Source: Demequina aestuarii
GTDB taxonomy: Bacteria > Actinomycetota > Actinomycetes > Actinomycetales > Demequinaceae
DNA length: 64,000 bases
Assembly: GCF_000975095.1 (NCBI RefSeq)
Contig: NZ_BBRD01000001.1
Location: forward strand, 1,259,467 to 1,323,466
Reading direction: 5' to 3'
The translations under genes were made by a program, and so were the position numbers. How positions within the stretch are numbered: the first letter of the stretch is position 1; each line of letters opens with the position of its first letter. Under the pieces are notes generated by a model. That model had not been told where the DNA came from, did not search any database, and saw nothing but the letters and a program-made list of their open reading frames with translations. Shown in pieces: positions 47,459 to 62,371 of this stretch.

Positions 47459-48601
47459 TCAGGTCCCCGGTGCCTGACGATCGCGCCAGCGTTCGGCCGC
47501 CGAGATGAGGGATTGCGCAGCGGCGGCCCGCCACCCGTGCGCGTACTCGAGATCCCACACCGGAGCCCGGCCGTTGAACATGCCGCCCTTGTCACTCGGC
47601 GCCACAGCGAGACCAGTGTCGTACATGTGACGGCCGTCCCGCGTGAGCAGCATGACGGACGTGAGTCGCAGCACCTTCCCGGGTGACTGCTGGCGCAGGG
47701 TGTCGTCATAGGCGTCGACGAATCCACACCACACGTTCGATGTCCGAAGAGAGATGTTCATCGCGAGCGTGCGATCGCCGGCGACCAGCGCCCACACCGA
47801 CAGGTCCCCGTCGTCGGCGTAGCGTCCGATCACTTCTCGCGCCCAGGTCGCATGGCGTTCATCCAAGGCGAAGCCCGCCCCGCCTCGCTCAGCGTTGCCC
47901 TTCCAGCCGAGCGACTGGAAGTCGATGAACGCATCTGCGATCCCCGCCTCTGCGCTGCGGTCGATGACGTTCACCGGTGCGCCGAGGAGGTCCTTCTCGA
48001 GCTCGCTGATGTTGATCAGCAAGCTGCGTCGAGTGCGTTTGGAGAGGTGCGTGGCGCGATGGACGATGTCCGCCGGCGGGAGTCCGTGCAAGTCGACTGC
48101 GTTCTCCGCAGCACGCATCGTGACGAGCGCCCGGGTCTGGGCATGCCTGACCGTCTGTCGGCGGCCCCGCGCGGGCTCGCCTGCCGCGGTCATCCACGCG
48201 GACTCCCGGGGCACCTCGCCGATGCGCACCGTTCCAGCCGAGCCCAGGCCGGCCGCAGCCTCGACGAGCAATGGCAGCACGCCTCCCACCATGCCGGCGC
48301 GAATCAGTGGGTGCCGACGGTCCGCGTGCCACGTCATGAAACGGCCATGGGAGCTCGCGGTCGTGAGGGGGATTCTCCTCAGGGGTCGGGTCACCTCGAT
48401 CGGGAGCAAGCCGTGCCAACCCCGCTCGTCTTCCACCACGACGATCCGCAGACCGGCGACCATCTCGCGCCACCGCACCGCAGGCACCACGAAACGCGGG
48501 TCGAGCCAGGCGTTGACGGTCTCCGCGCCTTCGCTCAGGTCACGCCACCGCTGCTCGTCCTCGCTGGTGACGGCGGCGAGGTCAATGATCCGGGCTCTCA
48601 T
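47459..48601 (-). CDS. GNAT-fold acyltransferase, BcsL/CelD-like, copy 1
   Basis: A 380-residue protein of the FemAB/BcsL group of acyltransferases found in polysaccharide loci. The acyl-CoA-binding half is centred on about residues 190-310 (FIDFQSLGWKGNAERGG, then SVWALVAGDRTLAMNISL and CGFVDAYDDTLRQQSPGKVLR). It should acylate or aminoacylate a sugar or lipid. It overlaps the second copy by four bases and shares its general layout; the two are paralogues. Substrate unknown. Confidence 0.75.
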   Translation of the reverse strand: MRARIIDLAAVTSEDEQRWRDLSEGAETVNAWLDPRFVVPAVRWREMVAGLRIVVVEDERGWHGLLPIEVTRPLRRIPLTTASSHGRFMTWHADRRHPLIRAGMVGGVLPLLVEAAAGLGSAGTVRIGEVPRESAWMTAAGEPARGRRQTVRHAQTRALVTMRAAENAVDLHGLPPADIVHRATHLSKRTRRSLLINISELEKDLLGAPVNVIDRSAEAGIADAFIDFQSLGWKGNAERGGAGFALDERHATWAREVIGRYADDGDLSVWALVAGDRTLAMNISLRTSNVWCGFVDAYDDTLRQQSPGKVLRLTSVMLLTRDGRHMYDTGLAVAPSDKGGMFNGRAPVWDLEYAHGWRAAAAQSLISAAERWRDRQAPGT

Positions 48602-49863
48602 GGGGTGACGCTGTCGTCGGCGGGCGTGTCGCGGACCATCCCGGGTGTCTCTGCGCGGGTCGACTCTGGATGCGGTGAGGCGCTGTGGCGCCGCAGCCGG
48701 CGTCGCCAGGCCATGAGTGTGAGAAGAGCGCGTGCGCGCGCACCCGAACGGACGACCAGGATCTGGAGTGTCGGCTCGATACGGATCTCTCCATCCGCCG
48801 AGGCCGCGGCCGCGGCGCTCATCGGCAGCAGCGGATCGACGCTCTCCCCGGCCTCACCCTGCCTCAGCGTGCGGAGCACTGCGTGACGGCCGATCGTTCC
48901 GGGTGACAGCCTGCGGTGCTTCTCGCTGTACGCGTCGTAGAAGCCGAACCACCCGCCCGCGGCCGCGCCGAGGTTGACGCTCATGTAGAGCACCTCGTCG
49001 CCACCGCACACCGCCATCACCCGCAGACGGCCACGCGACGCGAAGTCGGCCAGAATACTGCGGAACGCGGCCAGCCGTTCGGGGTGGAGCACCAACCCGT
49101 CTCCACCGCGCGCGGCATCCGCCTTCCAGCCCTGCGCCTGGAAGTCGGCGAACACATCGGCGACGTCAGGTCGGCTTGACCAGTCTTCGACGCGCAGCTC
49201 GCCTCCCGCCGTCTCCGCCAGTGCGGCCGCACGCTTCCGGTGGCCCCTGCGGTGGCCCGATGACAGGCCGGCCGGCGGATCAAAGACGTCCAGGGAGCGC
49301 TCGCCGGGGTCAGCGGGGTACCTCCAGCGTGACTCCCCTTCGAGATCGGATGTCGAGATGCCGGCGTCGCGTGCGACAGCGAGGATTGCCGCCCCGACGG
49401 TCGACTCGGGCAGGGCGGAGAGCGCGAGCGCCCCAGGGGTCTGCCCTGTGCCCAGCGCATGCAGCACGGCGCCGATGTGTCGTGCTGGGTCATCCTTCCG
49501 CACCAGCGGATAGCAGCGCCCCACGTAACGCGTGAGGTAGTCGGGGTGCGAGGACGCGGTGATGAAGCGCAGCCCTCGCAGCTCGTAGGGCGCCCGAATG
49601 TAGGGAAGGAGCATGCCGAAGCGGCCATCGTCGTCACTGGCAACGAGCAGTCGCAACGCGGATCCACCCGGCCACGCCTTCGCCGCGTGCCGCTGGAAGT
49701 CGGGCTCAGCGAACGGGGTCGGCTCGAGTGCGTTCTCGGCAAGCTCGTGCCACCGTGCGACGAACTGATCGTCGATGTCATGAATGCTCACGTCCTGAAC
49801 GTGGCTCACAGAACTGCCCCCATCGTGACCACGCGCCCCATCGCGTTCATGTGCACGGCCCAT
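48598..49863 (-). CDS. GNAT-fold acyltransferase, BcsL/CelD-like, copy 2
   Basis: A ~421-residue paralogue of the next gene, with the same marks: VFADFQAQGWKADAARGGDG, RVMAVCGGDEVLYMSVNL and FGFYDAYSEKHRRLSPGTIGRH. The C-terminal ~60 residues are arginine-rich. The start is uncertain: ATG 49863 has GGGGA and follows a TACCCT box; GTG 49809 has GGGGGC; GTG 49917 lies upstream of the likely transcription start. It begins a two-gene operon. Confidence 0.75.
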   Translation of the reverse strand: MGRAHERDGARGHDGGSSVSHVQDVSIHDIDDQFVARWHELAENALEPTPFAEPDFQRHAAKAWPGGSALRLLVASDDDGRFGMLLPYIRAPYELRGLRFITASSHPDYLTRYVGRCYPLVRKDDPARHIGAVLHALGTGQTPGALALSALPESTVGAAILAVARDAGISTSDLEGESRWRYPADPGERSLDVFDPPAGLSSGHRRGHRKRAAALAETAGGELRVEDWSSRPDVADVFADFQAQGWKADAARGGDGLVLHPERLAAFRSILADFASRGRLRVMAVCGGDEVLYMSVNLGAAAGGWFGFYDAYSEKHRRLSPGTIGRHAVLRTLRQGEAGESVDPLLPMSAAAAASADGEIRIEPTLQILVVRSGARARALLTLMAWRRRLRRHSASPHPESTRAETPGMVRDTPADDSVTP

Positions 49864-49900
49864 CAATCCCCGTAGAACGCCGTTGCCACTGCTCGCGTCC

Positions 49901-49906
49901 AGGGTA
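49901..49906 (-). promoter_or_regulatory. -10 box TACCCT for the GNAT pair
   Basis: Minus-strand TACCCT; transcription would begin near 49894, downstream of the GTG at 49917, which argues against that start. Confidence 0.4.
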
Positions 49907-50008
49907 GTGACCGCCACTCCGTGAGCACAAGGATGCGCGGGCGACCTGTTGCCCTCGCACCACGCGTCGCAGCGCCCGGTGCGTCGAATGCGATCGGACC
50001 ATCTCGCA

Positions 50009-51070
50009 CTACCGCCGCGCCCCGGTGCGGTACAGATGCTCGTAGAGCGCGACCACGCTCGTGAGGTCGAACTCCCGCGCCCTGGCGAGGCCCGCCGTCG
50101 CGAGGCGTTCGCGCTCGTCGGCGTCGGTCAACAGCCTGAGCAGCGCCTGCCCGAGCCCGTCAAGTTCGACGAGTGCCCCCGCTGCGCCCTCGTCGGTGAC
50201 GTAGCGAGCGCCCACGTTGGGCGTCGCGACGACCGGGAGGCCGCTCGCCATGGCTTCCGCGTACGGGATCCCGAAGCCCTCGTAGGCGGACGGCAGGCAG
50301 AACACCCACGCCCGTCGATAGGCGTCTGCCAACTCGGCATCGGTCAGGGTGCCGAGCACATGGACCCCCGGCCCAGGGTCGGCTGGTGCGTCGCGGCACA
50401 CCATCTCGAGTCTCGCCTCTGGCAGCACGGGCAGTACGTGCTCCTGAAAGGACTCGGCGAGGAGCCGGCCGCGCTTGCGATTCTCCCACGTCCCCACGAA
50501 CAGCACCGTGGGAACCGCGGCGCGCGCGCCCGCATCGGGGGCGAAGCGCCCTGCGTCGACTCCGTTGGGGATCACGGTCTTCACCCACGGCAGCCATCGC
50601 CGGGTGCGGGGCGAGACCACCACGGTCCGGTCTGCCACGACGCTGGCGAGCACCTCGCTGAAACCGAGGAGCACCATCCGCAGCCTCTCCTTCACCCCGC
50701 CGATGCGCAGCGCCTCTTCGAAGCACGAGCCGTGCACCGTGCGCACGTGCACCGGGACCCGGCGGCGCCACAGCCAGTAGTCGTCTCCGTGGGCGTGCAG
50801 CACGTCGTAAGAGGTGAGGTCGAGGCGGCGCATGCGCTGGGCGAAGCGGAAGGTGCGCAACCGTCCGGGGCTCGACAGATCGATGTGCCCGTAGCGGGCC
50901 CCCTCCACGGGTGGGCAGTCGCTGATGACGTCGACGTGATGTCCGCGCGCCACGAGAGCGGTGGCGAGTTCGTGCACCTGATAGCCGACGCCGATCTTGC
51001 TTCCGCTCGGAAGATAGTAGGAGATCATCGCGATGCGCAGCGGTGCCACGGCAGCTGAGTCGGCGCTCAT
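50009..51070 (-). CDS. Family 4 glycosyltransferase
   Basis: A 353-residue retaining glycosyltransferase of the GT-B fold. The glycine-rich N-terminal loop is SYYLPSGSKIGVGYQVHELA, the hinge has VIPNGVDAGRF, and the donor site has LPSAYEGFGIPYAEAMASGLPVVAT with the catalytic EGFGIPYAE. It is coupled to the WbsX-type gene by a four-base overlap (ATGA), in one operon read on the minus strand. It adds one sugar to the growing glycan; the sugar is not predictable. Confidence 0.87.
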   Translation of the reverse strand: MSADSAAVAPLRIAMISYYLPSGSKIGVGYQVHELATALVARGHHVDVISDCPPVEGARYGHIDLSSPGRLRTFRFAQRMRRLDLTSYDVLHAHGDDYWLWRRRVPVHVRTVHGSCFEEALRIGGVKERLRMVLLGFSEVLASVVADRTVVVSPRTRRWLPWVKTVIPNGVDAGRFAPDAGARAAVPTVLFVGTWENRKRGRLLAESFQEHVLPVLPEARLEMVCRDAPADPGPGVHVLGTLTDAELADAYRRAWVFCLPSAYEGFGIPYAEAMASGLPVVATPNVGARYVTDEGAAGALVELDGLGQALLRLLTDADERERLATAGLARAREFDLTSVVALYEHLYRTGARR

Positions 51071-52140
51071 CGCCGCAGCCTGGTGCTCAGCGCCGTCAAC
51101 CATGCGCGGCCGTGCTCGAGATCCGGCTCGAGGTAATTGCCCTCTGCCCACTCGTTCCACGACTTGATCCACAGGAGTCGCTCGTCAGCCGGGCGATCCG
51201 CGAGGCTCTCCACCGCGTGATCCACGTTCTCGGCGAAGCGCTCCGGCGACGAACCCGTGAGCACGGTGCCGCGGCTGCCGGAGCGCGGGGTGTTGTCCCA
51301 GTTCGGGTACACGCTGGGCTGCAGCGTCGCGTCGTCGCGCACCGCGTCCCAGAGACCGCGGTCCGTCGAGTAGGGGTACACCTCTGGCCCGCCGAGCTTG
51401 CGACGCACCTTCATGCGCAGCATCGCGGCGGTGTCCCGCTCAGCGGGAAGGCGCACGTACACGCCCGCGTCGAAGCCGTCGTCCGCCGTTCGCGTGTAGC
51501 GCATGCCCTGACCCAATAGGTCGCTCACCTCGGCGACGAGGTACATCCCGCCCAGTCCCGCGTCGCGCGCCATCTGCTGCCACCGATCCACGAAGGCGCG
51601 CGCATCTGGCAACTCCTCTGGGCGGAACACATAGAACACCGGCCGGCCATCGACTCGTAGATAGCGATCGTCTCGGAGAGCAGGAAGAATGCTCTCAAAG
51701 TGCGCGCGGTCGTCCTCCGGGCCAGGGTAGGTCTGCTCGCGCAGCACTCGGTTGGGTGCACCGTGCCAGATGCCCGTCCACGTCTGATTGGCCCAGCCGA
51801 GGCAGAACTTCACCGCCGGGCTGCCGGCAGCGAGGACCTCCGCGAAGGGACGCTCGAGAATTCTCGACCCCGCACCGAACCAGTAGTGCCAGTAGCAGAA
51901 CGCCTCGACCCCGTGCGCGAGTGCCAGGTCGCTCTGCGCCTGGCGCGCATCGGGCATGCGAAGGTCGTAGAAGCCGAGATCGGCCGGGAGATGGGGCTGC
52001 ACGTGACCGCGAAACAGCGAACGCGCGCGGGCGGCATTCGTCCACTCCGTGAAGCCGGGTCCCCACCACTCGTCGTTCTCAGGGATGGGGTGGAACTGTG
52101 GCAGGTAGAACGCGATCGCACGAGCCCGAACCTCAGTCAT
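51067..52140 (-). CDS. WbsX-type glycan protein (GH99-like fold)
   Basis: A 357-residue protein of the WbsX/glycosyltransferase-associated family, found in O-antigen and capsule clusters. The family's marks are present: FYLPQFHPIPENDEWWGPGFTEWTN in outline, the CYWHYWFGAGSRILERPF segment, and the C-terminal IKSWNEWAEGNYLEPD. It is related by fold to endo-mannanase GH99, but the biochemical role of WbsX is not settled. No signal peptide. The start has a TAGCCT box six bases upstream. Confidence 0.85.
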   Translation of the reverse strand: MTEVRARAIAFYLPQFHPIPENDEWWGPGFTEWTNAARARSLFRGHVQPHLPADLGFYDLRMPDARQAQSDLALAHGVEAFCYWHYWFGAGSRILERPFAEVLAAGSPAVKFCLGWANQTWTGIWHGAPNRVLREQTYPGPEDDRAHFESILPALRDDRYLRVDGRPVFYVFRPEELPDARAFVDRWQQMARDAGLGGMYLVAEVSDLLGQGMRYTRTADDGFDAGVYVRLPAERDTAAMLRMKVRRKLGGPEVYPYSTDRGLWDAVRDDATLQPSVYPNWDNTPRSGSRGTVLTGSSPERFAENVDHAVESLADRPADERLLWIKSWNEWAEGNYLEPDLEHGRAWLTALSTRLRR

Positions 52141-52225: not shown

Positions 52226-52273
52226 CCTGTGCTGAGGGCGCCCTCCGGTGCGCCCCAGGACGGCGGAGACACC

Positions 52274-53218
52274 ATGACGGGCCCCCAGGTGAGCGTGATC
52301 ATTCCCGCCTACAACGCCGCCGCGACGCTTGCGGGCCAGCTCGCCGCCCTCGCCGCCCAGCAGAGCGCGCCGTCGTTCGAGGTGATCGTGAGCGACAACG
52401 GCTCGGACGACCTCACCGCGGCCGTGGCACACGACCACGGCGCGAGGTTGCCTGACCTCACCGTGATCGACAGCACCGCGCGGCGTGGGCCGTCGGCGGC
52501 GCGCAACTCGGGCGCAGCGCACGCGCGCGGTGCCGTGCTCGCCTTCTGCGATGCGGATGACGTGGTGTCACCCGGGTGGCTCGCATCGCTCGTTCGGGCC
52601 CTCGACACGGCCGATGCGGTCGCGGGAGCGTTCGAGCACCGTCGTCTCAACCCTCCCCGGGCGATCGCAGTCTCGTGGAACACGGACATCCCGATCCGCC
52701 TCGCGTCCTGGCCAGACTTGCCCGCGGGCGCGAGCTCGAACCTCGCGATCACGACAGAGGCGTTCCGCGCGTTGGGGGGATTCGACGAGGACCTGGCCAC
52801 GTGCGAGGACATCGACCTGTGTTGGCGCGCGCAGCTCGCGGGCTACCGCCTCGCGTTCGCGCACGACGCCGTGGTGCACGAGCGCAAGCGAAGCGGGCTC
52901 CGGGCGACATACCGGCAGTCCGTGGCGTATGCCAGGGGCACTCATGCTCTCGAGCTCAAGCACCGTGAGCTCCTGGGCTCCACGCCTCCAGGCATGGTGT
53001 CCACCGCAGTCGACCATGGAGCAGCGAGCAGGACCACCGCTGACGTCGACTCGCGCGCCATGCCGCAGTCACACGTCCACAGTTCCGTGGACCTCAGCCG
53101 GCGGCTGCGCGCGCTCGGCAGCCGGGTGAGGAGACCCGACCGCGCGAGCCTGCTCGCCGATCTGGTGTGGCGCATCGGACAGCGGCATGGACTCGAGGCC
53201 GAGAGGTCCAGACCGTAG
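52274..53218 (+). CDS. Family 2 glycosyltransferase, paralogue 4
   Basis: A 314-residue GT-A enzyme: VSVIIPAYNAAATLAGQLAAL, VSDNGSDDLTAAV, the STARRGPSAARNSGAAHARG stretch and the metal site FCDADDVVSPGWL. The acceptor motif is GGFDEDLATCEDIDLCWRAQL. The C-terminus is basic. The ATG has GGCGGAG upstream. It is most similar to the 44455 and 46349 genes. It stands alone, with a 303-base gap after it. Confidence 0.86.
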   Translation: MTGPQVSVIIPAYNAAATLAGQLAALAAQQSAPSFEVIVSDNGSDDLTAAVAHDHGARLPDLTVIDSTARRGPSAARNSGAAHARGAVLAFCDADDVVSPGWLASLVRALDTADAVAGAFEHRRLNPPRAIAVSWNTDIPIRLASWPDLPAGASSNLAITTEAFRALGGFDEDLATCEDIDLCWRAQLAGYRLAFAHDAVVHERKRSGLRATYRQSVAYARGTHALELKHRELLGSTPPGMVSTAVDHGAASRTTADVDSRAMPQSHVHSSVDLSRRLRALGSRVRRPDRASLLADLVWRIGQRHGLEAERSRP

Positions 53219-53521
53219 GCCCAGACGGTCGCGGTCGTGGCGCATCAGCACGTCTCGCGGAGCGGAGCTCTCGCGAGCCTCGCGCTCCACACCCGTGCAG
53301 CTCCTCGGTTGCCGCGACCACGGCTCGGCGCAGAGGGCCTCTGACGCGCACTTCGCAGGACCGCGGCTGCGTGACTGCGCTCAGCGCCTCACATAGGTCG
53401 CCGGGCCCCGTCCGCCAGACGCGTGGTGGTGTGAGGGCTGTTCCCTCGCGGCGGTCTCACCGCTACTCTCCTCAGCAAGGGGCCAGCACCCGGCTCAGGC
53501 CGTGCCAGCGAGGGGAACGAG
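53219..53521 (+). other. 303-base gap before the HAD-UbiA gene
   Basis: No gene or RNA could be supported. The part near 53270 has a CTCGCGAG palindrome, and GAGGG/CCCTC at 53433-53447 could form a small hairpin. The right end carries a -10 box (TACTCT, 53464-53469) and the ribosome binding site AGGGGAA of the next gene. Confidence 0.5.
53464..53469 (+). promoter_or_regulatory. -10 box TACTCT for the HAD-UbiA operon
   Basis: TACTCT is followed by a leader of about 45 bases and AGGGGAA before the TTG start at 53522. Confidence 0.35.
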
Positions 53522-54952
53522 TTGAGCGAGCACTCGCCGCCCACGGGCGGGATCACCGCAGTCGATCTCGACGGCACGCTGCTGAGGTCCGACCTGCTCT
53601 GGGAGGCGGCAGCCCGCTACTCCACGACGCGTCCGTCCGCCCCGTTCCACGTCATGCGGTGGGCTGCCCGGGGCCGGGCGCGTCTCAAGTCTGAGCTGGC
53701 ATCGCGCGTCTCCGTGGATGCCACAGCAATCCCGTACCGCACCGAGGTCGTCGAGGAGCTCCGCGCCGTCGCCGCCGATGGCGGACGGGTCGTCATTGCG
53801 ACAGCCGCCGCACGCTCGCACGCCGAACCGGTGGCCGCGCATCTCGGCTTCGTCGAAGCCGTGCTCGCCACCGACGCTGACGGAGTGAACCTGCGTGGCC
53901 CTGCGAAGGCGGATGCCCTCGACGACTACGCTCACGGCACTCCGTGGACCTACTACGGGGACTCGTTGGTCGACGTTCCGGTCTGGAAGCGAAGCGGTGG
54001 CGCCGTCGTCGTCGACCCCAGCAAGCGGGTGCAGCGCGCGGTCGCGGGCCTCGACATCCCCGTGCGGACCCTCGTCTGCGAAGCGCCGTCGACGGCCAGA
54101 GCGTGGCGCTCGGGTCTCCGTGTCCACCAGTGGGCGAAGAACGCACTCGTGCTCGTCCCGCTGCTGACGGGCCATCTGCTCGTCGAACCGGATGCCGTGG
54201 TGCGCGCCCTGGCTGCCGCCATCGCGTTCTCGATGATGGCCTCGTCGATCTATCTCCTCAATGACCTCGTGGACCTCCCGTCCGACAGGGCGCACGCGAC
54301 CAAGCACAATCGTGCGCTGGCCGCGGGCTGGATCAGCGTGCGGGCCGCATTGATCGTGTCGATGCTGCTCGCCGTCGGGTCGCTTGCCGTGGCGGTTGCC
54401 ATCAGCTGGCTCTTCACTGGCGTGATCCTCGTCTACGCGGTAGCCACCACGCTCTATTCGCTGTGGATCAAGCGAAAGATCGTCGCCGACATCGTGGGGC
54501 TCGCGATGCTCTACACCTGGCGCATCATCGCCGGGTGTGCAGCGATCGCGGTCGTGCCCTCGATCTGGATCCTTGCCTTCAGCATCTTCATCTTCTTCAG
54601 CCTCGCCACCATGAAGAGATACGCCGAGATCGTGAACCATGAGCAGTCGGCGTCGGGACGCGACTACCACCTCGTCGATGCGCCGCTGCTCCTCGCCATC
54701 GGCACCTCCTCTGGCGTCGCCGCGGTCTTGGTATCGGTGCTGTACCTCGACTCTGCGCAGGTGCACGAGCTGTACGCCTTCCCTCAGGCGCTCTGGGCCG
54801 TCATCCCCTTGCTCGTCTATTGGATCGTGCGGTTCTGGATGGTCGCGGTGCGCGGAGGCGTCGATGATGATCCACTGGTGTTCGCGCTCACCGATCGGAC
54901 GAGCCTGATCGTGTTCGCACTGATCGGCGTGGCGGGGCTGGTGGCATTGTGA
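53522..54952 (+). CDS. HAD phosphatase-UbiA prenyltransferase fusion
   Basis: A 476-residue fusion. Residues ~10-195 are a HAD-type phosphatase: DLDGTLLRSD (motif I), ATAAARS (motif II) and YGDSLVDVPVW (motif IV). Residues ~200-476 are a UbiA-type membrane prenyltransferase with NDLVDLPSDRAHATKHNR and, after YSLWIKRKIVAD, IVGLAMLYTWRIIAG. The prenyltransferase half resembles decaprenyl-phosphate phosphoribosyltransferase (Rv3806c), whose product is then dephosphorylated, so the fusion could do both steps (inference). The TTG start has AGGGGAA upstream. Its stop overlaps the next gene. Confidence 0.82.
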   Translation: MSEHSPPTGGITAVDLDGTLLRSDLLWEAAARYSTTRPSAPFHVMRWAARGRARLKSELASRVSVDATAIPYRTEVVEELRAVAADGGRVVIATAAARSHAEPVAAHLGFVEAVLATDADGVNLRGPAKADALDDYAHGTPWTYYGDSLVDVPVWKRSGGAVVVDPSKRVQRAVAGLDIPVRTLVCEAPSTARAWRSGLRVHQWAKNALVLVPLLTGHLLVEPDAVVRALAAAIAFSMMASSIYLLNDLVDLPSDRAHATKHNRALAAGWISVRAALIVSMLLAVGSLAVAVAISWLFTGVILVYAVATTLYSLWIKRKIVADIVGLAMLYTWRIIAGCAAIAVVPSIWILAFSIFIFFSLATMKRYAEIVNHEQSASGRDYHLVDAPLLLAIGTSSGVAAVLVSVLYLDSAQVHELYAFPQALWAVIPLLVYWIVRFWMVAVRGGVDDDPLVFALTDRTSLIVFALIGVAGLVAL

Positions 54953-56535
54953 CTGCGGCGCGTCTGTCTCGCCTTCACGCCTGGGCTTGGGGCGTGATCG
55001 GCACCGCGTTCATGGCGTTGGCGATGGCGCCGATCGCGATCGTGCCGCTGTTCGGTGATGACTTCGAGATCGCGGCGCTTCACGACCTCGAGTATCACGG
55101 ATCGCTGCTCAACGTGATGGCGCAGGGGTGGTGGGGCGACCTCCAGTCCAACCGGTTCAACCCGGTCGGGCGCGAGTTCTCTCTGGGCTACCACGTGTTC
55201 GCCCGCGAGGCGGGAGCGATCACCGGTGCCGATCCCCAGACCTTCTACCGCCTCGGCACGTGGGCTCTTGGATGCGCGTCTGCTCTCGCCGCGGCCTTCA
55301 CGCTCGTGCACGCGGCGCGGTTCGTGAGTGCCCGCAACGCTCTGGCTCTGGCTCCCACCTACGCCGCGATCTGCGCCGCAGTGGCCGTGACACTTCACCT
55401 GCACTTCCTCTCTCACGATCCCACGCTCACGATCGCGGAGATCGGCTACGGGGTCGTGGTGCTGTCGCTCTGGCTCATCGGTCTCGGCTTCCGAGCGCTG
55501 CGGCCCAACGTGCCGCTCGGCCGCGCGGTGTGGCCATTCGCGGTGCTGTCCATGGCGGGCACCCTGTTCTACGAGACCTTCGTGACGGCGGTCGCCGCGA
55601 TGGCGTTGGTGTTCGTCGTGGTCCTCGGCCGCGAGCGGCGTTGGCGGCTCCTCGGCTGGTTGCTGGGTGCCGGCGCGCTGCTGCCTGCCGCGGTGTTCCT
55701 CGCGGGGCGCTGGTGGGTCAATACGTACGCGACCGACGTCGCGCAGTACTCGGGCACCGAGCTCCAGCTCTCGGCAGGCGCAGCGCGCACGTTCGCTCTC
55801 TACACAGCGGGCACGGTGCCAGGCGCCTCATGGCGTCACGCCGCTGCCGTCACCGGAGGACCGATGTTCGTCGCTCCCGCGATGATCACAGCGACGCTGA
55901 CGGCGGCGCTGCTCATTGCCACACTGGTGCTGCTGCGGCGCTGGCGCTCGCTCCCGCGTCTCGTCCCGTCGCGACGACTGTGGCTGGTGCTTGCCGTTCT
56001 CGCCATTCATGTGGCTGGCACCTATGGCGCGCAATCGGCCTCGCCGAAGTACATCACCACCATCTATCACCTCGGCGTCGTCTACCTCGGCTACGCCACC
56101 GGCGTTCTCGTGGCCGCCATGCTCGCCGTCGGGGCGCTGCTGTTCCTGCCTCGAAGGATCGCTCGCGTCACGGCCGTCGTCCTCGTCGTCATCGCGATCC
56201 CCTTCACGTATGTGCAGCACGCGCTCAACTGGGCGGTGGCGACTGAGATCGCTGGGCTGGTCACGCCCAACGACAGGATCACCACCGAGTTGTCACGTGG
56301 AGCCCTTGCGGAGCCGGAGCGTTGTGAGCTGCTCCACCAGTGGGTGGGGCGCGACTCGTACTTCGGCACCGCGCCAGACCTCATGGCCACGATCTTCGAA
56401 TCACTCGATGCGCGATACGAGACGCACCACGGCGAGCCCTTCTGCGCCAGCGATGCCCCCGAGATCCCGCTCGAGGAGCGGCCCTCCGTGACCTCACCTG
56501 CGGCCGGACCAGCGCCCGAGGCGCCGCAGCCATGA
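54949..56535 (+). CDS. Polytopic GT-C-like glycosyltransferase
   Basis: A 528-residue membrane protein with about ten helices. The first outside loop has GDDFEIAALHD, a DD pair where GT-C lipid-linked-sugar transferases carry their catalytic acid, followed by FNPVGREFSLGYHVFAREAG. The C-terminal ~90 residues are soluble and end in a proline-rich tail. The likely role is to use a polyprenyl-phosphate sugar on the outer face of the membrane; this is inferred from the fold and the UbiA neighbour. It overlaps both neighbours by four bases. The exact family is not recognised. Confidence 0.65.
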   Translation: MTAARLSRLHAWAWGVIGTAFMALAMAPIAIVPLFGDDFEIAALHDLEYHGSLLNVMAQGWWGDLQSNRFNPVGREFSLGYHVFAREAGAITGADPQTFYRLGTWALGCASALAAAFTLVHAARFVSARNALALAPTYAAICAAVAVTLHLHFLSHDPTLTIAEIGYGVVVLSLWLIGLGFRALRPNVPLGRAVWPFAVLSMAGTLFYETFVTAVAAMALVFVVVLGRERRWRLLGWLLGAGALLPAAVFLAGRWWVNTYATDVAQYSGTELQLSAGAARTFALYTAGTVPGASWRHAAAVTGGPMFVAPAMITATLTAALLIATLVLLRRWRSLPRLVPSRRLWLVLAVLAIHVAGTYGAQSASPKYITTIYHLGVVYLGYATGVLVAAMLAVGALLFLPRRIARVTAVVLVVIAIPFTYVQHALNWAVATEIAGLVTPNDRITTELSRGALAEPERCELLHQWVGRDSYFGTAPDLMATIFESLDARYETHHGEPFCASDAPEIPLEERPSVTSPAAGPAPEAPQP

Positions 56536-57992
56536 CGAGTCTGGTGGTCGCGATCACCATCGTCACCGTCACCGCCACGGTGATGGTGCTCGAGTGGCGA
56601 CCGCCGCGCGTCCTCGTTCCCTTGTTCGGCAACGACGCTCACGTCGGTCCCGCCGTCCGGGCAGCGACGACGATGATCGGTGCAGGGGTCATTCTCGCCG
56701 CCCTCTCAGTGCTGGCGACCAGCGCAGTTCAGAGCAGCACGTTCGCCTACGCCGTCGACGCGCTGCTGCCGGGGGGCGCTGGTGGAGACTCGTGGGTCCC
56801 GATGCTCACCGCGGCGCAGAACCTTCAGCACGACCCGCAGTCCCCGGTCTATGAGGTGATCTTCTTCGATGGCGGCATGAAGTTCCAGTATCCGGTGATG
56901 TCCGTCGTGATCGTGGGTCCCGTCATCGCGGCGCTCGGATGGACGGACACTCAGGTCTACGACGTCGCCAACGCGGCGAGCTGGTTGAGCTTCATCGCAC
57001 TGGGTGTGACCGTGGGCGCGGTCTTCCTTCGCGCGCTGGCCCATGCGACATCGCGGGTATCACCCTACTCATGGCCCGTGCGGGTCTCCGCTGCCGTCTG
57101 TGGACTGGGGGCGACCTTCGTGTTCTACCCCGTCACGCGGGGACTCGAACTCGGCCAGATCCAGACCGCCATGACGCTCGCCGTGGCGTTGGCGCTGCTC
57201 GCGTGGCAGCACCATCGCCCGTGGGCCGCAGGTGCGCTGATCGGCCTCTGCTGCGTCGTCAAGCCTCACTGGGGGCTGCTGGTGATGTGGGCGCTGTTCC
57301 GTGGCCGCTGGCAGTTCGCCGCCGGGGCGGCCCTGGTGGCGGGCCCCTTGACGGTGCTCAGCATCGCTCTGTACGGATTCGACAACGTCATCGGATACGT
57401 GGATGTGGCGCGAGCGTTGAGTGCCAGCGGCGAGTCCTACTTTGCCAACCAGTCGTTCAACGGCCTCACGAACCGTCTGCTCGGCAACGGCCCCAACCTC
57501 ACCTTCGACCCCGCCGGGTTCCCGCCCGAGCATGCGGTCGTGCGCACCGTCACGCTCGTGACCGCCATCGCCATCATCGGCGCGGCGGTGACATGGCGCA
57601 TGCAGAGGCCACCCACGGCGGTCGAGTTCTCCATCGTGGTGGTGAGCATCACCGTGGCCGCCCCCGTCGCGTGGGAGCATCACTACGGAGTGCTGCTGCC
57701 GGTCTTCGCCGCCGCCACTCCCGCCGCGATCGCGTGGCGACCGTGGGGTCGAGGGACCCTCGCGTGGCTGGTGGTCGCATACTCACTGACGAGCGTCTCG
57801 CTGTTCCCGCTCGTCAACCGCGCTGCAGACACGCCTGCGAACGTGCTGCAGTCCTTCATGCTCGTGGGAGGACTCGTGCTCCTCATCACCTTGTACCGGG
57901 TGTCGCAGCTCGAGCGGCAGGCCGTGTCCCGAACGACTCAGGTCCCGGATGCGGTGCCCGGGCCGCCCGCCGCCCCCTCGCGAGATGGCTGA
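56532..57992 (+). CDS. GT87-like (DUF2029) polytopic glycosyltransferase
   Basis: A 486-residue, roughly ten-helix membrane protein of the DUF2029/GT87 group, which includes polyprenyl-phosphomannose-dependent mannosyltransferases of actinobacteria. The first outside loop has VYEVIFFDGGMKFQYPV, and a later segment has KPHWGLLVMWALF, both typical of the group. It overlaps the 54949 gene by four bases, so the three genes from 53522 form one operon. The last 55 bases overlap the convergent family 4 glycosyltransferase gene. Confidence 0.8.
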   Translation: MTSLVVAITIVTVTATVMVLEWRPPRVLVPLFGNDAHVGPAVRAATTMIGAGVILAALSVLATSAVQSSTFAYAVDALLPGGAGGDSWVPMLTAAQNLQHDPQSPVYEVIFFDGGMKFQYPVMSVVIVGPVIAALGWTDTQVYDVANAASWLSFIALGVTVGAVFLRALAHATSRVSPYSWPVRVSAAVCGLGATFVFYPVTRGLELGQIQTAMTLAVALALLAWQHHRPWAAGALIGLCCVVKPHWGLLVMWALFRGRWQFAAGAALVAGPLTVLSIALYGFDNVIGYVDVARALSASGESYFANQSFNGLTNRLLGNGPNLTFDPAGFPPEHAVVRTVTLVTAIAIIGAAVTWRMQRPPTAVEFSIVVVSITVAAPVAWEHHYGVLLPVFAAATPAAIAWRPWGRGTLAWLVVAYSLTSVSLFPLVNRAADTPANVLQSFMLVGGLVLLITLYRVSQLERQAVSRTTQVPDAVPGPPAAPSRDG

Positions 57993-59173
57993 CGCACGCA
58001 CGCGTTCCACGCCTTCGCCACAGTCCCCGCAGTGCGGCCTATCGAGAGTTCCTCTCGCGCGCGTGCACGAGCACCGCGTGCGCGCTCGCGTGCGCTGTCC
58101 ACGTCTGCCACCACCGTGACGATGCCTGCCGACAGCGCCGCCGCGTCGCCCGGCCGGACAAGCACCCCCCACGGGGTCGTCCACACTCCGTCGGCGACCT
58201 GCGTGCGTTGGCCGTGAGGATCCAGCAGCTCGGGAACGCCGCCCGCATCCGTCGCGACCACCGGGACGCCGAGAGCCATCGCCTCGGCGACCACCTGGCC
58301 GAATGGCTCGGGCACCGGTGAGGCGTGCACCACCACGGTGAACGTCGACATCTGCGCAGGCACATCGTCGGTCCACCCGCTGATGACCAGGGCGTCGTCG
58401 AGGCCAGCAGCACTGACAGCCTGGCCGAGGAGCCGCGCGTAGTCCGCATCACCGAACTTCGCTTCACCGACGATCCTGAACGTCGCCTCGGGACGGACCT
58501 GACGCACGATGCGGGCTGCGGCGACGAACTCGCGCTGACCCTTCGTCTCGCTGAGCCGTCCCACGATGCCGACCACGCTCCCCCGCGGCTCTCGACGGGG
58601 CATGTCGAGCAGCGACGAGTGCACCCCCGGGTAGGCCACGACAGACCTGTCTCGTGCCCGAGCCGGCAGGGTGTCGACCGTTGCGTGCGAGTTGGCGACG
58701 ATCAGCCGGGGCCCGTGTGCCGCCAGCACACCCATCGCCCGCGCCACGGGTGTCGGAAGGTAGTCAGGCGCGAGGCGATCGTGCAAGTGCCACACCCAGG
58801 GTTGCCGCGTGAGACGCGACACCATCCCCACGAGCACCGCGGCCTTCAACGAGTTGGCGACCACGAGTTCCGGATCGAGCTCCCGCAGCACGCGGCGCAG
58901 CCTCGTGGCGACGCTCACCGTCGCGGGGAGTGCGCGCACGGCCGCCATCCGTCCGGCGTCGCCGCGCGCCACCGTCGCGACGCCACCGCCATCGATGACG
59001 GTGACGGGCACTCCTTGCGCCTCGAGCCTGTCCACGAGCGCTCCCCGACCCCACGTCACTGCGTGCATCTCGAAAGCCCCCGGCGGTAGAGCCTCCAGCA
59101 GCCGCAGCAGCGCGAGCTCGGCACCGCCGAGCTCGGCGGTATGCGTCACGACGACGACTCTGAGGGCCGGCAC
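57938..59173 (-). CDS. Family 4 glycosyltransferase
   Basis: A 411-residue GT-B enzyme. It begins LRVVVVTHTAELGGAELALLRLLEAL, the acceptor-side loop, and the donor site has GIVGRLSETKGQREFV and SPVPEPFGQVVAEAMALGVPVVAT with the catalytic EPFGQVVAE. The C-terminus is a short acidic-to-basic tail. The GTG at 59173 has a TACACT box six bases upstream and CCGACA 17 bases before that, a complete leaderless promoter. Longer in-frame starts exist but carry no conserved sequence. Confidence 0.86.
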   Translation of the reverse strand: MPALRVVVVTHTAELGGAELALLRLLEALPPGAFEMHAVTWGRGALVDRLEAQGVPVTVIDGGGVATVARGDAGRMAAVRALPATVSVATRLRRVLRELDPELVVANSLKAAVLVGMVSRLTRQPWVWHLHDRLAPDYLPTPVARAMGVLAAHGPRLIVANSHATVDTLPARARDRSVVAYPGVHSSLLDMPRREPRGSVVGIVGRLSETKGQREFVAAARIVRQVRPEATFRIVGEAKFGDADYARLLGQAVSAAGLDDALVISGWTDDVPAQMSTFTVVVHASPVPEPFGQVVAEAMALGVPVVATDAGGVPELLDPHGQRTQVADGVWTTPWGVLVRPGDAAALSAGIVTVVADVDSARERARGARARAREELSIGRTAGTVAKAWNACVRQPSREGAAGGPGTASGT

Positions 59174-59179
59174 GCTCCG

Positions 59180-59185
59180 AGTGTA
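59180..59185 (-). promoter_or_regulatory. -10 box TACACT with CCGACA -35, leaderless start
   Basis: Minus-strand TACACT, six bases before the GTG; the -35-like CCGACA is separated by 17 bases. Confidence 0.55.
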
Positions 59186-59236
59186 GTGCGGCGCGGCTCC
59201 GCTGTCGGGGCCCTTCCGGGCCCCCCTCGCGCGCAC

Positions 59237-59242
59237 TAGCAT
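59237..59242 (+). promoter_or_regulatory. -10 box TAGCAT
   Basis: Plus-strand TAGCAT plus six bases reaches an ATG at 59249 that opens a 33-codon frame, not the glycosyltransferase frame. Confidence 0.4.
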
Positions 59243-59248
59243 GGCGGC

Positions 59249-59350
59249 ATGTGCCCCTTCGCGCCTGGCAGAGATGTCCACGACTGGCGCACGCCAACGG
59301 GGCCGATGCGGGCATCGGTGCTCGAGCCGCGGCGGTGCATCCGTGGCTGA
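59249..59350 (+). CDS. Possible 33-residue leader peptide
   Basis: A short open frame starts MCPFAPGRDVHDW at the end of a leaderless promoter and stops at 59350, eight bases into the glycosyltransferase gene whose GTG lies at 59343. The arrangement would let a ribosome that ends the leader restart on that GTG, which has no good ribosome binding site. It has one cysteine-arginine cluster near the end (RRCIRG) and no recognised motif. It may be chance; the coupling is the only support. Confidence 0.35.
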   Translation: MCPFAPGRDVHDWRTPTGPMRASVLEPRRCIRG

Positions 59351-60203
59351 GCGCACGCTGGGGGCATATGTGCTCCCCGGGGACCCTGTGTGGCTTGCAC
59401 GCACGCTGCCCCAGTACTACTCGATGCTCACGGCGCTGTCGGTGCCGGTGCCGGCGGACGGCCTCAGCTGGACCGGACGACCGCTTCCGGTCGACGAGAC
59501 CCTGGCGATCATCGACGCGTGCGACACCCGGGGCCTCGCCGACCGCTTCGAGGGCCGGTGGACCAACGTGGACCGCCCTCGAGACGCGGGTACCGCCCAG
59601 CGTCAAGCCGCGCTGAATCGCGTGGGCGATGGCGTGGACTGGGTGCTCCAGATCGACAACGACGAGCTGCTGCCTCATCCCGAGGTCCTGGGGTCGGTTC
59701 TCGACGAGGCCGACCGGGTGGGCGCCATCGCGGTGGAGTGGCCCATGCGGGTGCTGTATCGACGGACCCGGCGCACTGTCCTCGAGGTGGTCGCCTCGAA
59801 CGGCGCACCCGTGTACGACTATCCGGGCCCCATCGCTGTACGTCCGGGAGCCACGTTGACCGAGGCGCGTCGCGCCGCAGGACCGCTCCTGCGAGTCGCG
59901 GTCCACGGCGACGATCAGTCGCTGCAGATCACCCGTCCGGCTGAGCCGCAGGAGTTCCGTGCCACCCTCCTGCAGCCCGAGCACGCGATCCTGCACAACT
60001 CGTGGGCTCGCCATCCGCGCGACGTGTGGCGCAAGGTGACGTCATCGGGTCATTCTCGCGACTTCGGCCTGGCCCGCTACTACGTGACGCGGTGGCTGAG
60101 CTCACCGCTCACGTGGCGCGCGCAGCGGGACGTCCACCCGTTCTCGAGCGGACTGTGGCCCGCACTCGCGCCGCGGGAGAACGCCGGCGTCTATGCGGAT
60201 TGA
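59343..60203 (+). CDS. Glycosyltransferase family 2-like protein
   Basis: A 286-residue divergent nucleotide-sugar-type transferase (from the GTG). It starts LGAYVLPGDPVWLARTLPQYYSML and has LQIDNDELLPHPEVLGSVL, a metal-binding D-N-D site typical of the glycosyltransferase family 2/92 group. The C-terminal HAILHNSWARHPRDVWRKVTSSGHS segment is conserved in that group. No membrane helix. In-frame ATGs at 59241 and 59274 would add 34 or 23 residues without conserved sequence. It is divergent from the GT4 gene with a 170-base shared control region. Confidence 0.72.
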   Translation: MAERTLGAYVLPGDPVWLARTLPQYYSMLTALSVPVPADGLSWTGRPLPVDETLAIIDACDTRGLADRFEGRWTNVDRPRDAGTAQRQAALNRVGDGVDWVLQIDNDELLPHPEVLGSVLDEADRVGAIAVEWPMRVLYRRTRRTVLEVVASNGAPVYDYPGPIAVRPGATLTEARRAAGPLLRVAVHGDDQSLQITRPAEPQEFRATLLQPEHAILHNSWARHPRDVWRKVTSSGHSRDFGLARYYVTRWLSSPLTWRAQRDVHPFSSGLWPALAPRENAGVYAD

Positions 60204-60244: not shown

Positions 60245-61072
60245 CTAGATCACGTCCGCGAAGCCGCGTTCCATCTTCTGGAACACCATCGTGCCCGCGA
60301 CGAGCACCAGCAGACCGACGCCCACGACGCCGAACATCTGCCACACGGGCGGCGCGTACAGGTCGAGGATCGACCACCGGAAGCACTCCATGAGCCACGT
60401 CAAGGGGTTGATCTGAAAGAGCCACTCGAGATCTGCGGGCACGGCCTCGAGCGAGTACGCCACTGGCGTGGCGAAGAACAGCACCTGGGTGAACCACGGC
60501 AGCACGTAGCCGACGTCGCGATACTTGACCATCATCGCCGATGCGGCAAGCCCCACGCCGAGCGCGAACATCACCGCGGCGAGAAGCCACACCGGCAGCA
60601 GCAGCAATCCCCATCCGGGCGCGACGCCGAACACGATCAGCAGGACTGCAAGGAGCCCGCATGCCACGGCGAAGTCGAGCAGCACGGACAGCACCGTCGA
60701 CAGCGGCACCAGCATCCGCGGGAAGAACACCTTGGACACCAGGGACTGATTCGCCACCAGCGACGCTGACGAACGCGAGATCACGCCCTCGAAGAGGTTC
60801 CAGGCCAGAACGCCGGCGAAGCTGAACACCAGGTAGGGCACGCCCTGGCTCGGCAGATCGGCGACCTGTCCGAAGACGATCGAGAACAATCCCGCCGCCA
60901 CCAGCGGCTGGATGATGACCCAGGCGATGCCCACCACCGTCTGCCGGTACCTCAGCACGATGTCGCGGGTGCCGAATCGCCAGAACACTTCACGGGCGCC
61001 CCACAACTCGCGGAACGGCGGCATGCCGATCCCGGCGGGCGGCGTGATGATGGTGCGCTTCGCGGTGGTCAT
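60245..61072 (-). CDS. ABC-2 polysaccharide exporter permease (Wzm-like)
   Basis: The membrane part of an ABC-2 type exporter for lipid-linked polysaccharide. The 275-residue protein has six predicted helices and the family mark RYRQTVVGIAWVIIQPLV near the N-terminus, followed by FSFAGVLAWNLFEGVISRSSASL and, near the end, NPLTWLMECFRW. Together with the next gene it forms the exporter. The ATG overlaps the Wzt stop by four bases, so the two are coupled. Confidence 0.9.
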   Translation of the reverse strand: MTTAKRTIITPPAGIGMPPFRELWGAREVFWRFGTRDIVLRYRQTVVGIAWVIIQPLVAAGLFSIVFGQVADLPSQGVPYLVFSFAGVLAWNLFEGVISRSSASLVANQSLVSKVFFPRMLVPLSTVLSVLLDFAVACGLLAVLLIVFGVAPGWGLLLLPVWLLAAVMFALGVGLAASAMMVKYRDVGYVLPWFTQVLFFATPVAYSLEAVPADLEWLFQINPLTWLMECFRWSILDLYAPPVWQMFGVVGVGLLVLVAGTMVFQKMERGFADVI

Positions 61073-62280
61073 GAGGAGGCCTCGTAGGTGAAATCCGCCA
61101 GCACGATGCCGGCCTTGAGCGCCTCTTCCGAGGTGAGCTCGGGATACGGGTAGTGCGGGAGCACTTCGAACGTGTCGGCGCCCTCCCAGGTGTCGAGAAT
61201 GCCAGCCTGGCACACCGACACCTTGATGCTGTACTGCCCGGGCTTGAGCCAGAGATTCTTGATCCGCAGCACCGGGCGGTGAGCCTGCGCGGGGGTGAAC
61301 CACTGCCCCACTGCGCGCGAGTCGCACTGCACGATCGAGGTGCCGTTGATGTCGTCGACGTGGCACGACACGAAGTAGTCGCCCACCATGTCGGGCGCCG
61401 GGGGAAGGCTGAGCTCCACCACGACGTCGTCGTCCGGGTTCTGCTGCTGGTTCTCCACCCGCACGCCGTCGAGTCGGATCTGACCCGTTCCCGGACGACG
61501 ATACGCCTCCACCTGTTCGGTCCGCAGTCGCGAGAAGCTGCTGCGGTACTCGTGCATCGCACCGTCGACGCTGCCGGAATACAGCAGCCTGCCCTTGTCG
61601 AGGTAGATGGCAGAGGTGCACAGGTTCACGACGGTCTGCGGCTGGTGGCTGACGTAGAGGACCGTGCGCCCGTCCCGTGCGACGTCCTTCATCTTCTGCA
61701 ATGACTTGCGCTGGAACTCGGCGTCCCCGACCGCGAGCACCTCATCGATCGCCAGGATCTCGGTCTCGAGGTGGGCGGCGACCGAGAACGCGAGGCGGAC
61801 GTACATGCCGGAGGAGTACCGCTTGACCGGGGTGTCCAGGAATCGCTCGACACCCGAGAAGTCGACGATCTCGTCGAAGCGGCGCTTGATCTCTTTGCGC
61901 GTCATTCCCAGGAGTGCGCCGTTGAGGTAGATGTTCTCGCGGCCGGTGAGCTCGGGATGAAAACCGGTGCCGACTTCGAGGAGGCTTCCCACCCGGCCGC
62001 CCAAGTCGATCAGGCCTGTCGTGGGCGCGGTGATGCGAGTGAGCAGCTTCAGCAGCGTCGACTTGCCTGCGCCGTTGCGGCCGACGATGCCCAGCGCCTC
62101 ACCCCATGGAATGTCCAGCGAGATGTCGTTCAGCGCGTGAAACTCGTCGTACTCGGGACGGCGGGTGGGATTGCGGAGCACATCCACGATGGCGTCGGTG
62201 ATGCGATCGATGTGGGCGGTGCGCCGGTTGATGCGATAGACCTTCGTCAGATGCTCGACTGAGATGGCTGTATCGCGCAT
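61069..62280 (-). CDS. ABC-2 polysaccharide exporter ATPase (Wzt-like)
   Basis: ATPase of the Wzm/Wzt type. The nucleotide-binding domain (about 1-245) has Walker A GRNGAGKST, signature YSSGMYVRL and Walker B ILAIDEVLAVGD. The C-terminal domain (about 255-403) is the kind that in Wzt proteins recognises the finished non-reducing end of the glycan before export; its sequence looks complete. The ATG at 62280 is preferred over an in-frame upstream start because conserved sequence begins at AISVEHLTKVYR. It starts the exporter operon. Confidence 0.92.
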   Translation of the reverse strand: MRDTAISVEHLTKVYRINRRTAHIDRITDAIVDVLRNPTRRPEYDEFHALNDISLDIPWGEALGIVGRNGAGKSTLLKLLTRITAPTTGLIDLGGRVGSLLEVGTGFHPELTGRENIYLNGALLGMTRKEIKRRFDEIVDFSGVERFLDTPVKRYSSGMYVRLAFSVAAHLETEILAIDEVLAVGDAEFQRKSLQKMKDVARDGRTVLYVSHQPQTVVNLCTSAIYLDKGRLLYSGSVDGAMHEYRSSFSRLRTEQVEAYRRPGTGQIRLDGVRVENQQQNPDDDVVVELSLPPAPDMVGDYFVSCHVDDINGTSIVQCDSRAVGQWFTPAQAHRPVLRIKNLWLKPGQYSIKVSVCQAGILDTWEGADTFEVLPHYPYPELTSEEALKAGIVLADFTYEASS

Positions 62281-62371
62281 ATAAACCCGATCTACCTCAA
62301 GGAATACCACCGCGGAGAGTGACCTCGGCCGAGGTCTGAGCACACGCTACCACGCTCGATTCCGGCTCCTC

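Follow-up and report, generated by a model that had tools for sequence, protein, structure and literature searches.

A HAD-UbiA fusion gene of Demequina aestuarii and the gene that overlaps its end are likely to belong to a three-component system that adds unepimerised ribofuranose to a surface glycan, in which polyprenyl-phosphate-ribofuranose would be made by the fusion protein and transferred by a GT-C-like protein. Both genes lie in a 64,000-nucleotide stretch of the genome, here called the window, whose first letter is position 1 of the window coordinates used below. The domains, catalytic and ligand residues, folds, gene overlap and recurrent linkage were computed, and from these we infer the substrates, the product, the lipid, the flippase, the acceptor and the order of steps. 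The model extends the Citrobacter-type one-chain lipid-ribose synthase to an actinomycete, where its gene is linked to one for a GT-C-like protein that no Pfam family covers, and it predicts ribofuranose in the cell-surface glycan of an organism where the mycobacterial arabinose steps were not found. The fusion protein very probably both joins ribose to a carrier lipid and removes the phosphate. It is a member of an already named protein family and its enzyme type is characterised; the mechanism as such is not new.

The fusion gene (53522..54952, forward strand) encodes 476 amino acids from a TTG start, ahead of which GAGGGG at 53510..53515 (+) reads as a Shine-Dalgarno-like sequence. The GC fraction of the ORF is 0.85 at codon position 3 and 0.48 at position 2, a bias typical of a real gene; an antisense ORF of 423 aa at 53495-54766 (-) was not picked by the codon-position filter. 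A GC content of 70%, like the gene content, fits an actinomycete. The HAD phosphatase half spans about residues 11-188 (53552..54085, +) and the UbiA-fold, predicted phosphoribosyltransferase half residues 191-476 (54092..54949, +). Pfam HAD (PF12710) matches residues 14-154 with 58.2 bits (cut-off 27) and Pfam UbiA (PF01040) residues 211-442 with 71.1 bits (cut-off 34.2). The protein also belongs to the NCBIfam equivalog NF006088/PRK08238 (UbiA family prenyltransferase), which covers residues 13-475, the full length, with 525.9 bits against a cut-off of 351; the next best NCBIfam models, for decaprenyl-phosphate phosphoribosyltransferase, score 96-122 bits, below their own cut-offs. The only PDB sequences matched at E <= 1 are the Mycobacterium tuberculosis DPPR synthase entries 8j8j and 8j8k. 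An AlphaFold model (pLDDT 89.2, 17-sequence input) agrees: residues 191-476 superpose on 8j8j with Z 28.1 (281 residues aligned at rmsd 2.9), the highest Z among other UbiA proteins is 20.7, for 4tq4, and the HAD half matches 3fvv with Z 18.7 and phosphoserine phosphatases with about 15-16. Together, these results bear out the initial annotation, which had described a HAD phosphatase fused to a DPPR-synthase-like UbiA enzyme.

The catalytic and ligand residues are largely kept in both halves. We mapped onto the fusion 15 positions of M. tuberculosis Rv3806c, namely 12 residues that hold PRPP and decaprenyl phosphate, as named in the accessible part of PMC10994848, and D74, D77 and D81 of the Asp motif. 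Thirteen of the 15 are identical, as are 10 of the 12 published ligand residues; the two changes are Q135 to T309 and K208 to R380. At 14 ligand columns, four stand-alone actinobacterial enzymes have 11 to 13 residues in common with the fusion, and the other UbiA proteins of its own genome have 7 (L001, heme O synthase), 5 (L002) and 9 (L003), a control that is less clean than hoped, since UbiA proteins share the Asp motif. What separates the last three from the fusion is a pair of lysines, at 206 and 365, that they lack. All 76 fusions carry N247, D248, D251, K261, K317, K365 and R366, and D255 and E369 are each found in 75; in the window, N247-D255 are encoded at 54260-54286 and K365-E369 at 54614-54628. 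The HAD catalytic residues D15 and D17 (53564-53572), T94, K129 and D147/D151 are all present; none of the 76 fusions lacks D15 or D151, and D17 and K129 are each kept in 75. Judged from this conservation, the donor of the fusion is probably PRPP and the HAD half is probably active.

An enzyme with this architecture has been characterised. Kelly et al. (2024, PMC11127046, as excerpted) describe ORF15 of Citrobacter youngae O1, a fusion of a HAD (PRP) domain and a PPPRS domain that forms farnesyl-P-ribofuranose from PRPP, within a three-component route of donor synthase, flippase and GT-C transferase, with epimerases optional. The two domains have the same order in ORF15 and in the window fusion, and a GT-C gene accompanies both. 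By the published numbers only, the tested ORF15 residues N247, D248, D251, D255, R366 and E369 have the same letters and numbers in the window fusion, and D18 of ORF15 corresponds to D15. In the described experiments, the ORF15 nucleophile mutant D18A shifts the main product to the 5-phosphate form in vitro while some dephosphorylated product persists (PMC11127046), so loss of the HAD active site may look leaky in vivo. Since the same excerpts already describe the architecture and the route, the earlier proposal appears correct in substance and its mechanism is not new; the part of it that put both steps in one chain gains support from residue conservation, from the predicted fold and from the published activity of ORF15. 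Our literature search found no paper on a HAD-UbiA fusion in actinomycetes, although the main text of PMC11127046, as excerpted, mentions Gram-positive candidates as listed in its supplement. The C. youngae O1 system serves the O antigen of a Gram-negative bacterium and uses a MATE flippase and a GT136 enzyme, whereas the window operon has no flippase and its GT-C-like protein has no assigned family.

Two further systems share part of this logic. Rv3806c resembles the UbiA half in sequence, in fold and at the mapped residues, but it has no HAD domain; there, a separate phosphatase of another family (Rv3807c) acts, followed by DprE1/E2 (PMC11127046, as excerpted). The noeCHOP and noeCNHOP arabinosylation genes of rhizobia, which we liken to the window by their description in the accessible part of PMC5080398, follow a polyprenyl-phosphate-pentose logic with a proposed dedicated 5'-phosphatase, NoeN; unlike the window, they are separate genes with an arabinose product.

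The fusion gene shares four bases, GTGA, with a gene at 54949..56535 (+) that encodes a polytopic GT-C-like protein of 528 aa, the predicted transferase for the lipid-linked pentose. The protein has no Pfam or NCBIfam match, and a profile built from five rows matches nothing in the PDB at E <= 10. In a Foldseek search with its model (pLDDT 71.7, pTM 0.78), ArnT, ALG12 and AftA came out on top, none at E <= 0.001. After realignment, GT-C glycosyltransferases or complexes containing one fill the first 45 rows, with Z running from 16.4 down to 8.1, and the next row has Z 5.9; the single exception, in row 33, is a GPI-transamidase subunit, which we take to be a GT-C-type relative. Helical proteins can reach Z about 14 without kinship, yet a real GT-C fold is favoured because Z drops sharply and the matches are of a single kind. 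D37 and D38, right after the first helix, are invariant in five aligned homologues, and a catalytic Asp after the first transmembrane helix has been proposed in several GT-C structures according to the excerpted text of PMC11127046. The D31/E34/Y35 spacing reported there for C. youngae ORF12 (CAZy GT136) is not kept in the five homologues, as compared by the reported spacing. The 54949-56535 protein probably transfers lipid-linked ribose to a surface sugar.

Linkage of this gene to the fusion recurs in other genomes. Among 347 genomes of the order, 5 have the GT-C-like gene, the window's own (G000) included; a profile search of 394 genomes of the class picked it up in 2. Four genomes were seen with both genes: they adjoin in G000, G051 and G287 and lie two genes apart in G319, a member of the same order. 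The window thus has one element of a three-component system, a GT-C-like gene linked to the predicted donor synthase gene. The G287 unit comprises three genes, ArnF-like, fusion and GT-C-like, and is flanked on one side by PNPase; the G319 unit comprises the fusion, an ArnF-like gene, an SDR epimerase gene and the GT-C-like gene. The ArnF matches are below the model's cut-off in both genomes. The two units hold the kinds of gene known from the published three-component system. In these small units of three and four genes, donor synthesis, flipping, epimerisation and transfer could be separated gene by gene. ORFs around the relatives were called with a home-made GC-position filter, which missed the ArnF-like gene of G287; this gene was recovered by a separate search. 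Neither the window's genome nor G051 has a relative of the ArnF-like gene at E <= 0.01, which leaves the flippase step without a candidate in the window operon; three GtrA-type proteins are encoded elsewhere in the window's genome. The G051 cluster largely matches that of the window (WbsX 94%, ABC ATPase 95% and fusion 79% identical), but its GT-C-like gene is only 40% identical, as would be expected if the acceptor differs. A strict tie between the two genes was considered and rejected, as relatives of the GT-C-like gene occur without an adjoining fusion in G222 and G796, and G256 has a fusion and no such gene.

The initial annotation had noted that no DprE1 or DprE2 lies in the window and had left open that the sugar stays ribose. 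We searched the whole genome for both genes of the mycobacterial DPA pathway, and at the thresholds used neither was found, which extends the statement beyond the window. The four FAD_binding_4 proteins of the genome are, by best match, MurB, YdiJ-like, lactone-oxidase-like and weakly GlcD-like. Against the DprE1 model they reach at most 58.8 bits, on part of its length (49.7 in a six-frame search), compared with 382.9 (L044) and 369.4 bits (G256) at full length for DprE1-like proteins beside other fusions; since these also stay below the curated cut-off of 500, the argument lies in the contrast and not in the cut-off. A search for DprE2 in G000, G051, G287 and G319 found nothing at E <= 1e-20. 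Among related fusions, a DprE1-like gene follows within three called genes on the same strand in 44 of 72, with a DprE2-like gene as well in 37; 2 have the DprE2-like gene alone and 26 have neither. These counts cover 72 of 80 fusion loci, those in which a fusion ORF was called at E <= 1e-30 (the other 8 were not counted), with neighbours classed by BLAST to one representative each and the representatives scanned with profiles. The window fusion has no DprE1-like gene downstream and shows nothing that sets it outside the range of NF006088/PRK08238. Another genome of the genus, G256, encodes a fusion of 42% identity, and downstream of it lie DprE1-like and DprE2-like genes and then two proteins of 420 aa that match no Pfam family. 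One genus thus seems to hold both product types, and the window's sugar most likely remains ribose, since no DprE1/DprE2 pair was found in its genome.

We then propose the following model. At the cytoplasmic side of the membrane, the fusion protein would take PRPP and polyprenyl phosphate; its UbiA-fold half would move phosphoribose onto the lipid phosphate, and its HAD half would strip the 5'-phosphate to give polyprenyl-phosphate-ribofuranose. The sugar would most likely stay ribose, without epimerisation, and a flippase would turn the lipid-linked sugar over. Outside the membrane, the GT-C-like enzyme would pass the ribofuranose to a surface polysaccharide, probably the product of the surrounding glycosyltransferase and ABC-exporter cluster. 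It is tempting to go further, although we hold this tentatively and would not yet bet on it, and suggest that the 54949-56535 protein is the first member of a GT-C family which the current Pfam set lacks and which decorates a Gram-positive surface glycan from polyprenyl-phosphate-ribofuranose, and that one genus holds two fusion lineages, one for ribose (window, G051, G287) and one for arabinose epimerised by DprE1/E2 (G256). If true, the genus would offer a natural pair for studying a switch of surface pentofuranose identity.

Two alternatives keep the lipid-linked ribose and change what follows. The one that we would take up before any other, though it is unlikely, is that the fusion makes polyprenyl-phosphate-ribose while the 54949-56535 protein uses another donor, the ribose being transferred by the downstream GT87 enzyme or by a further one. 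The relatives of the GT-C-like gene in G222 and G796 bear on this, because without an adjoining fusion their donor need not be ribose, and in G796 the distant relative lies near a GtrA protein and a GT2. The GT87 gene (PimE-type GT-C; 56532..57992, +; Pfam GT87 74.4 bits, cut-off 25) appears translationally coupled: the listed ORF starts at GTG 56340, but ATG 56532, in an ATGA overlap with the 54949-56535 gene, reads as the more likely start. Against this stand the G287 unit, in which fusion and GT-C-like gene occur with the ArnF-like gene and PNPase lies on one side, and the GT87 family itself, to which PimE belongs and whose members we take to work with polyprenyl-phosphate-mannose. No GT87 homologue turned up at E <= 1e-5 in the called ORFs that surround the relatives' copies (L142-L145). 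Where the initial annotation had suggested that the two following polytopic genes could use the product, the suggestion holds up for the 54949-56535 gene, given its GT-C-like fold and recurrent linkage, and is no more than possible for the GT87 gene. Next in order, and again improbable, is epimerisation of the lipid-linked ribose by an enzyme encoded elsewhere, a one-step SDR epimerase or unrecognised DprE-like proteins, with transfer of xylofuranose or arabinofuranose. The SDR epimerase gene between the flippase and GT-C genes of G319, the DprE1-like genes downstream of many related fusions and the DprE1/E2-like pair of G256 all point this way; the partial DprE1 match in the window's genome, the DprE2 searches of the four genomes, and a three-gene operon and scanned window ORFs in which no epimerase was found point to ribose.

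The other two alternatives concern the fusion protein itself. Phosphoribosyl transfer could be real while another enzyme, and not mainly the HAD half, removes the 5'-phosphate. The residual dephosphorylated product of D18A would fit, as would the noeN deletion in Rhizobium sp. IRBG74, which lowers arabinosylation and does not abolish it (PMC5080398, as excerpted); but D18A did alter the main product in vitro, and at most one of the 76 fusions lacks any given catalytic HAD residue, so that we consider this very improbable. That the UbiA half is an ordinary prenyltransferase of quinone, heme or lipid synthesis, with the HAD half acting on an unrelated phosphate, can hardly be correct. Pfam names the domain only as UbiA and NCBIfam the protein only as a UbiA family prenyltransferase, but the nearest PDB sequences and fold are those of DPPR synthase, L001, L002 and L003 depart from the fusion at the ligand columns and lack the two lysines, and DprE1-like genes adjoin many family members. 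A quinone or heme role was also rejected on other grounds, as the genome has its own heme O synthase (L001) and a MenA-like protein (L002, presumably so assigned, beside what we take to be a MenE-like gene). We retain synthesis of polyprenyl-phosphate-ribofuranose by the fusion and its transfer by the GT-C-like protein as the preferred reading.

The fusion is sparsely distributed. It is not unique to the window's genome, as first considered: within the genus, 4 of 44 genomes have it above the cut-off, and G319 of the order has it too. In a first sample of relatives and in a phylum sample, it was above the cut-off in 1 of 39 and 1 of 396 genomes, respectively. Some match at E <= 1e-40 occurs in 104 of the 396, and among the matches listed nearly all cover the UbiA part only. 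A tree of UbiA domains sets 76 fusions apart, at 100/100, from 12 stand-alone enzymes of the phylum; the 12 are those with more than 200 aligned columns among 27 loci with a tblastn match. The four actinobacterial fusions that lack DprE cluster together (100/100). When the tree was quickly rebuilt, leaving out 8 long rows and including G256, this group had an SH-aLRT of 98, and the G256 fusion joined it at only 84. A direct proteobacterial origin of the window's copy is not shown by the tree, where long branches meet. The distribution is consistent with a surface-glycan unit that has been gained and lost in a patchy way.

Domain scans place the operon in a glycan cluster with a GT2 glycosyltransferase (52229..53218, +), two GT4-type glycosyltransferases (50009-51172, -; 57938..59404, -) and a WbsX-type glycosyltransferase (51067-52140, -). 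An ABC-2 membrane protein (ORF 60245-61621, -, which overlaps the ATPase ORF and so probably starts further in) and an ABC ATPase (61069-62343, -; Wzt_C match below cut-off) are likely to form a polysaccharide exporter (60245..62343). A 320-aa protein without a Pfam match (59241-60203, +) has an 87% identical copy in the corresponding cluster of G051, and two adjacent proteins with Acetyltransf_6 (GNAT) domains (47459-49917, -) have relatives at the corresponding G051 place. About 14 kb past the window end, L012 14227-15387 (-) encodes a GT2 fused to a GtrA domain, likely a polyprenyl-phosphate-sugar synthase with its own flippase part and a possible donor source for the GT87 enzyme.

Other genomes hold further gene sets of this kind. 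On one small contig of G796 (L149 964-6153), a GtrA protein, a GT2, a DegT-type aminotransferase and the distant relative of the GT-C-like protein may form an amino-sugar three-component system. In G256, the two 420-aa proteins (L163 13199-14461 and 14664-15926) are tandem, hydrophobic, share the motif WAINYExGFVRRGL and are possible transferases of the DprE1/E2 system. Upstream of the same fusion, five consecutive ORFs of 157-352 aa (L163 4197-7885) have in common the N-terminal SRRR..GxAWxTPA..IATxSPPAAAS and resemble a tandem family of exported proteins.
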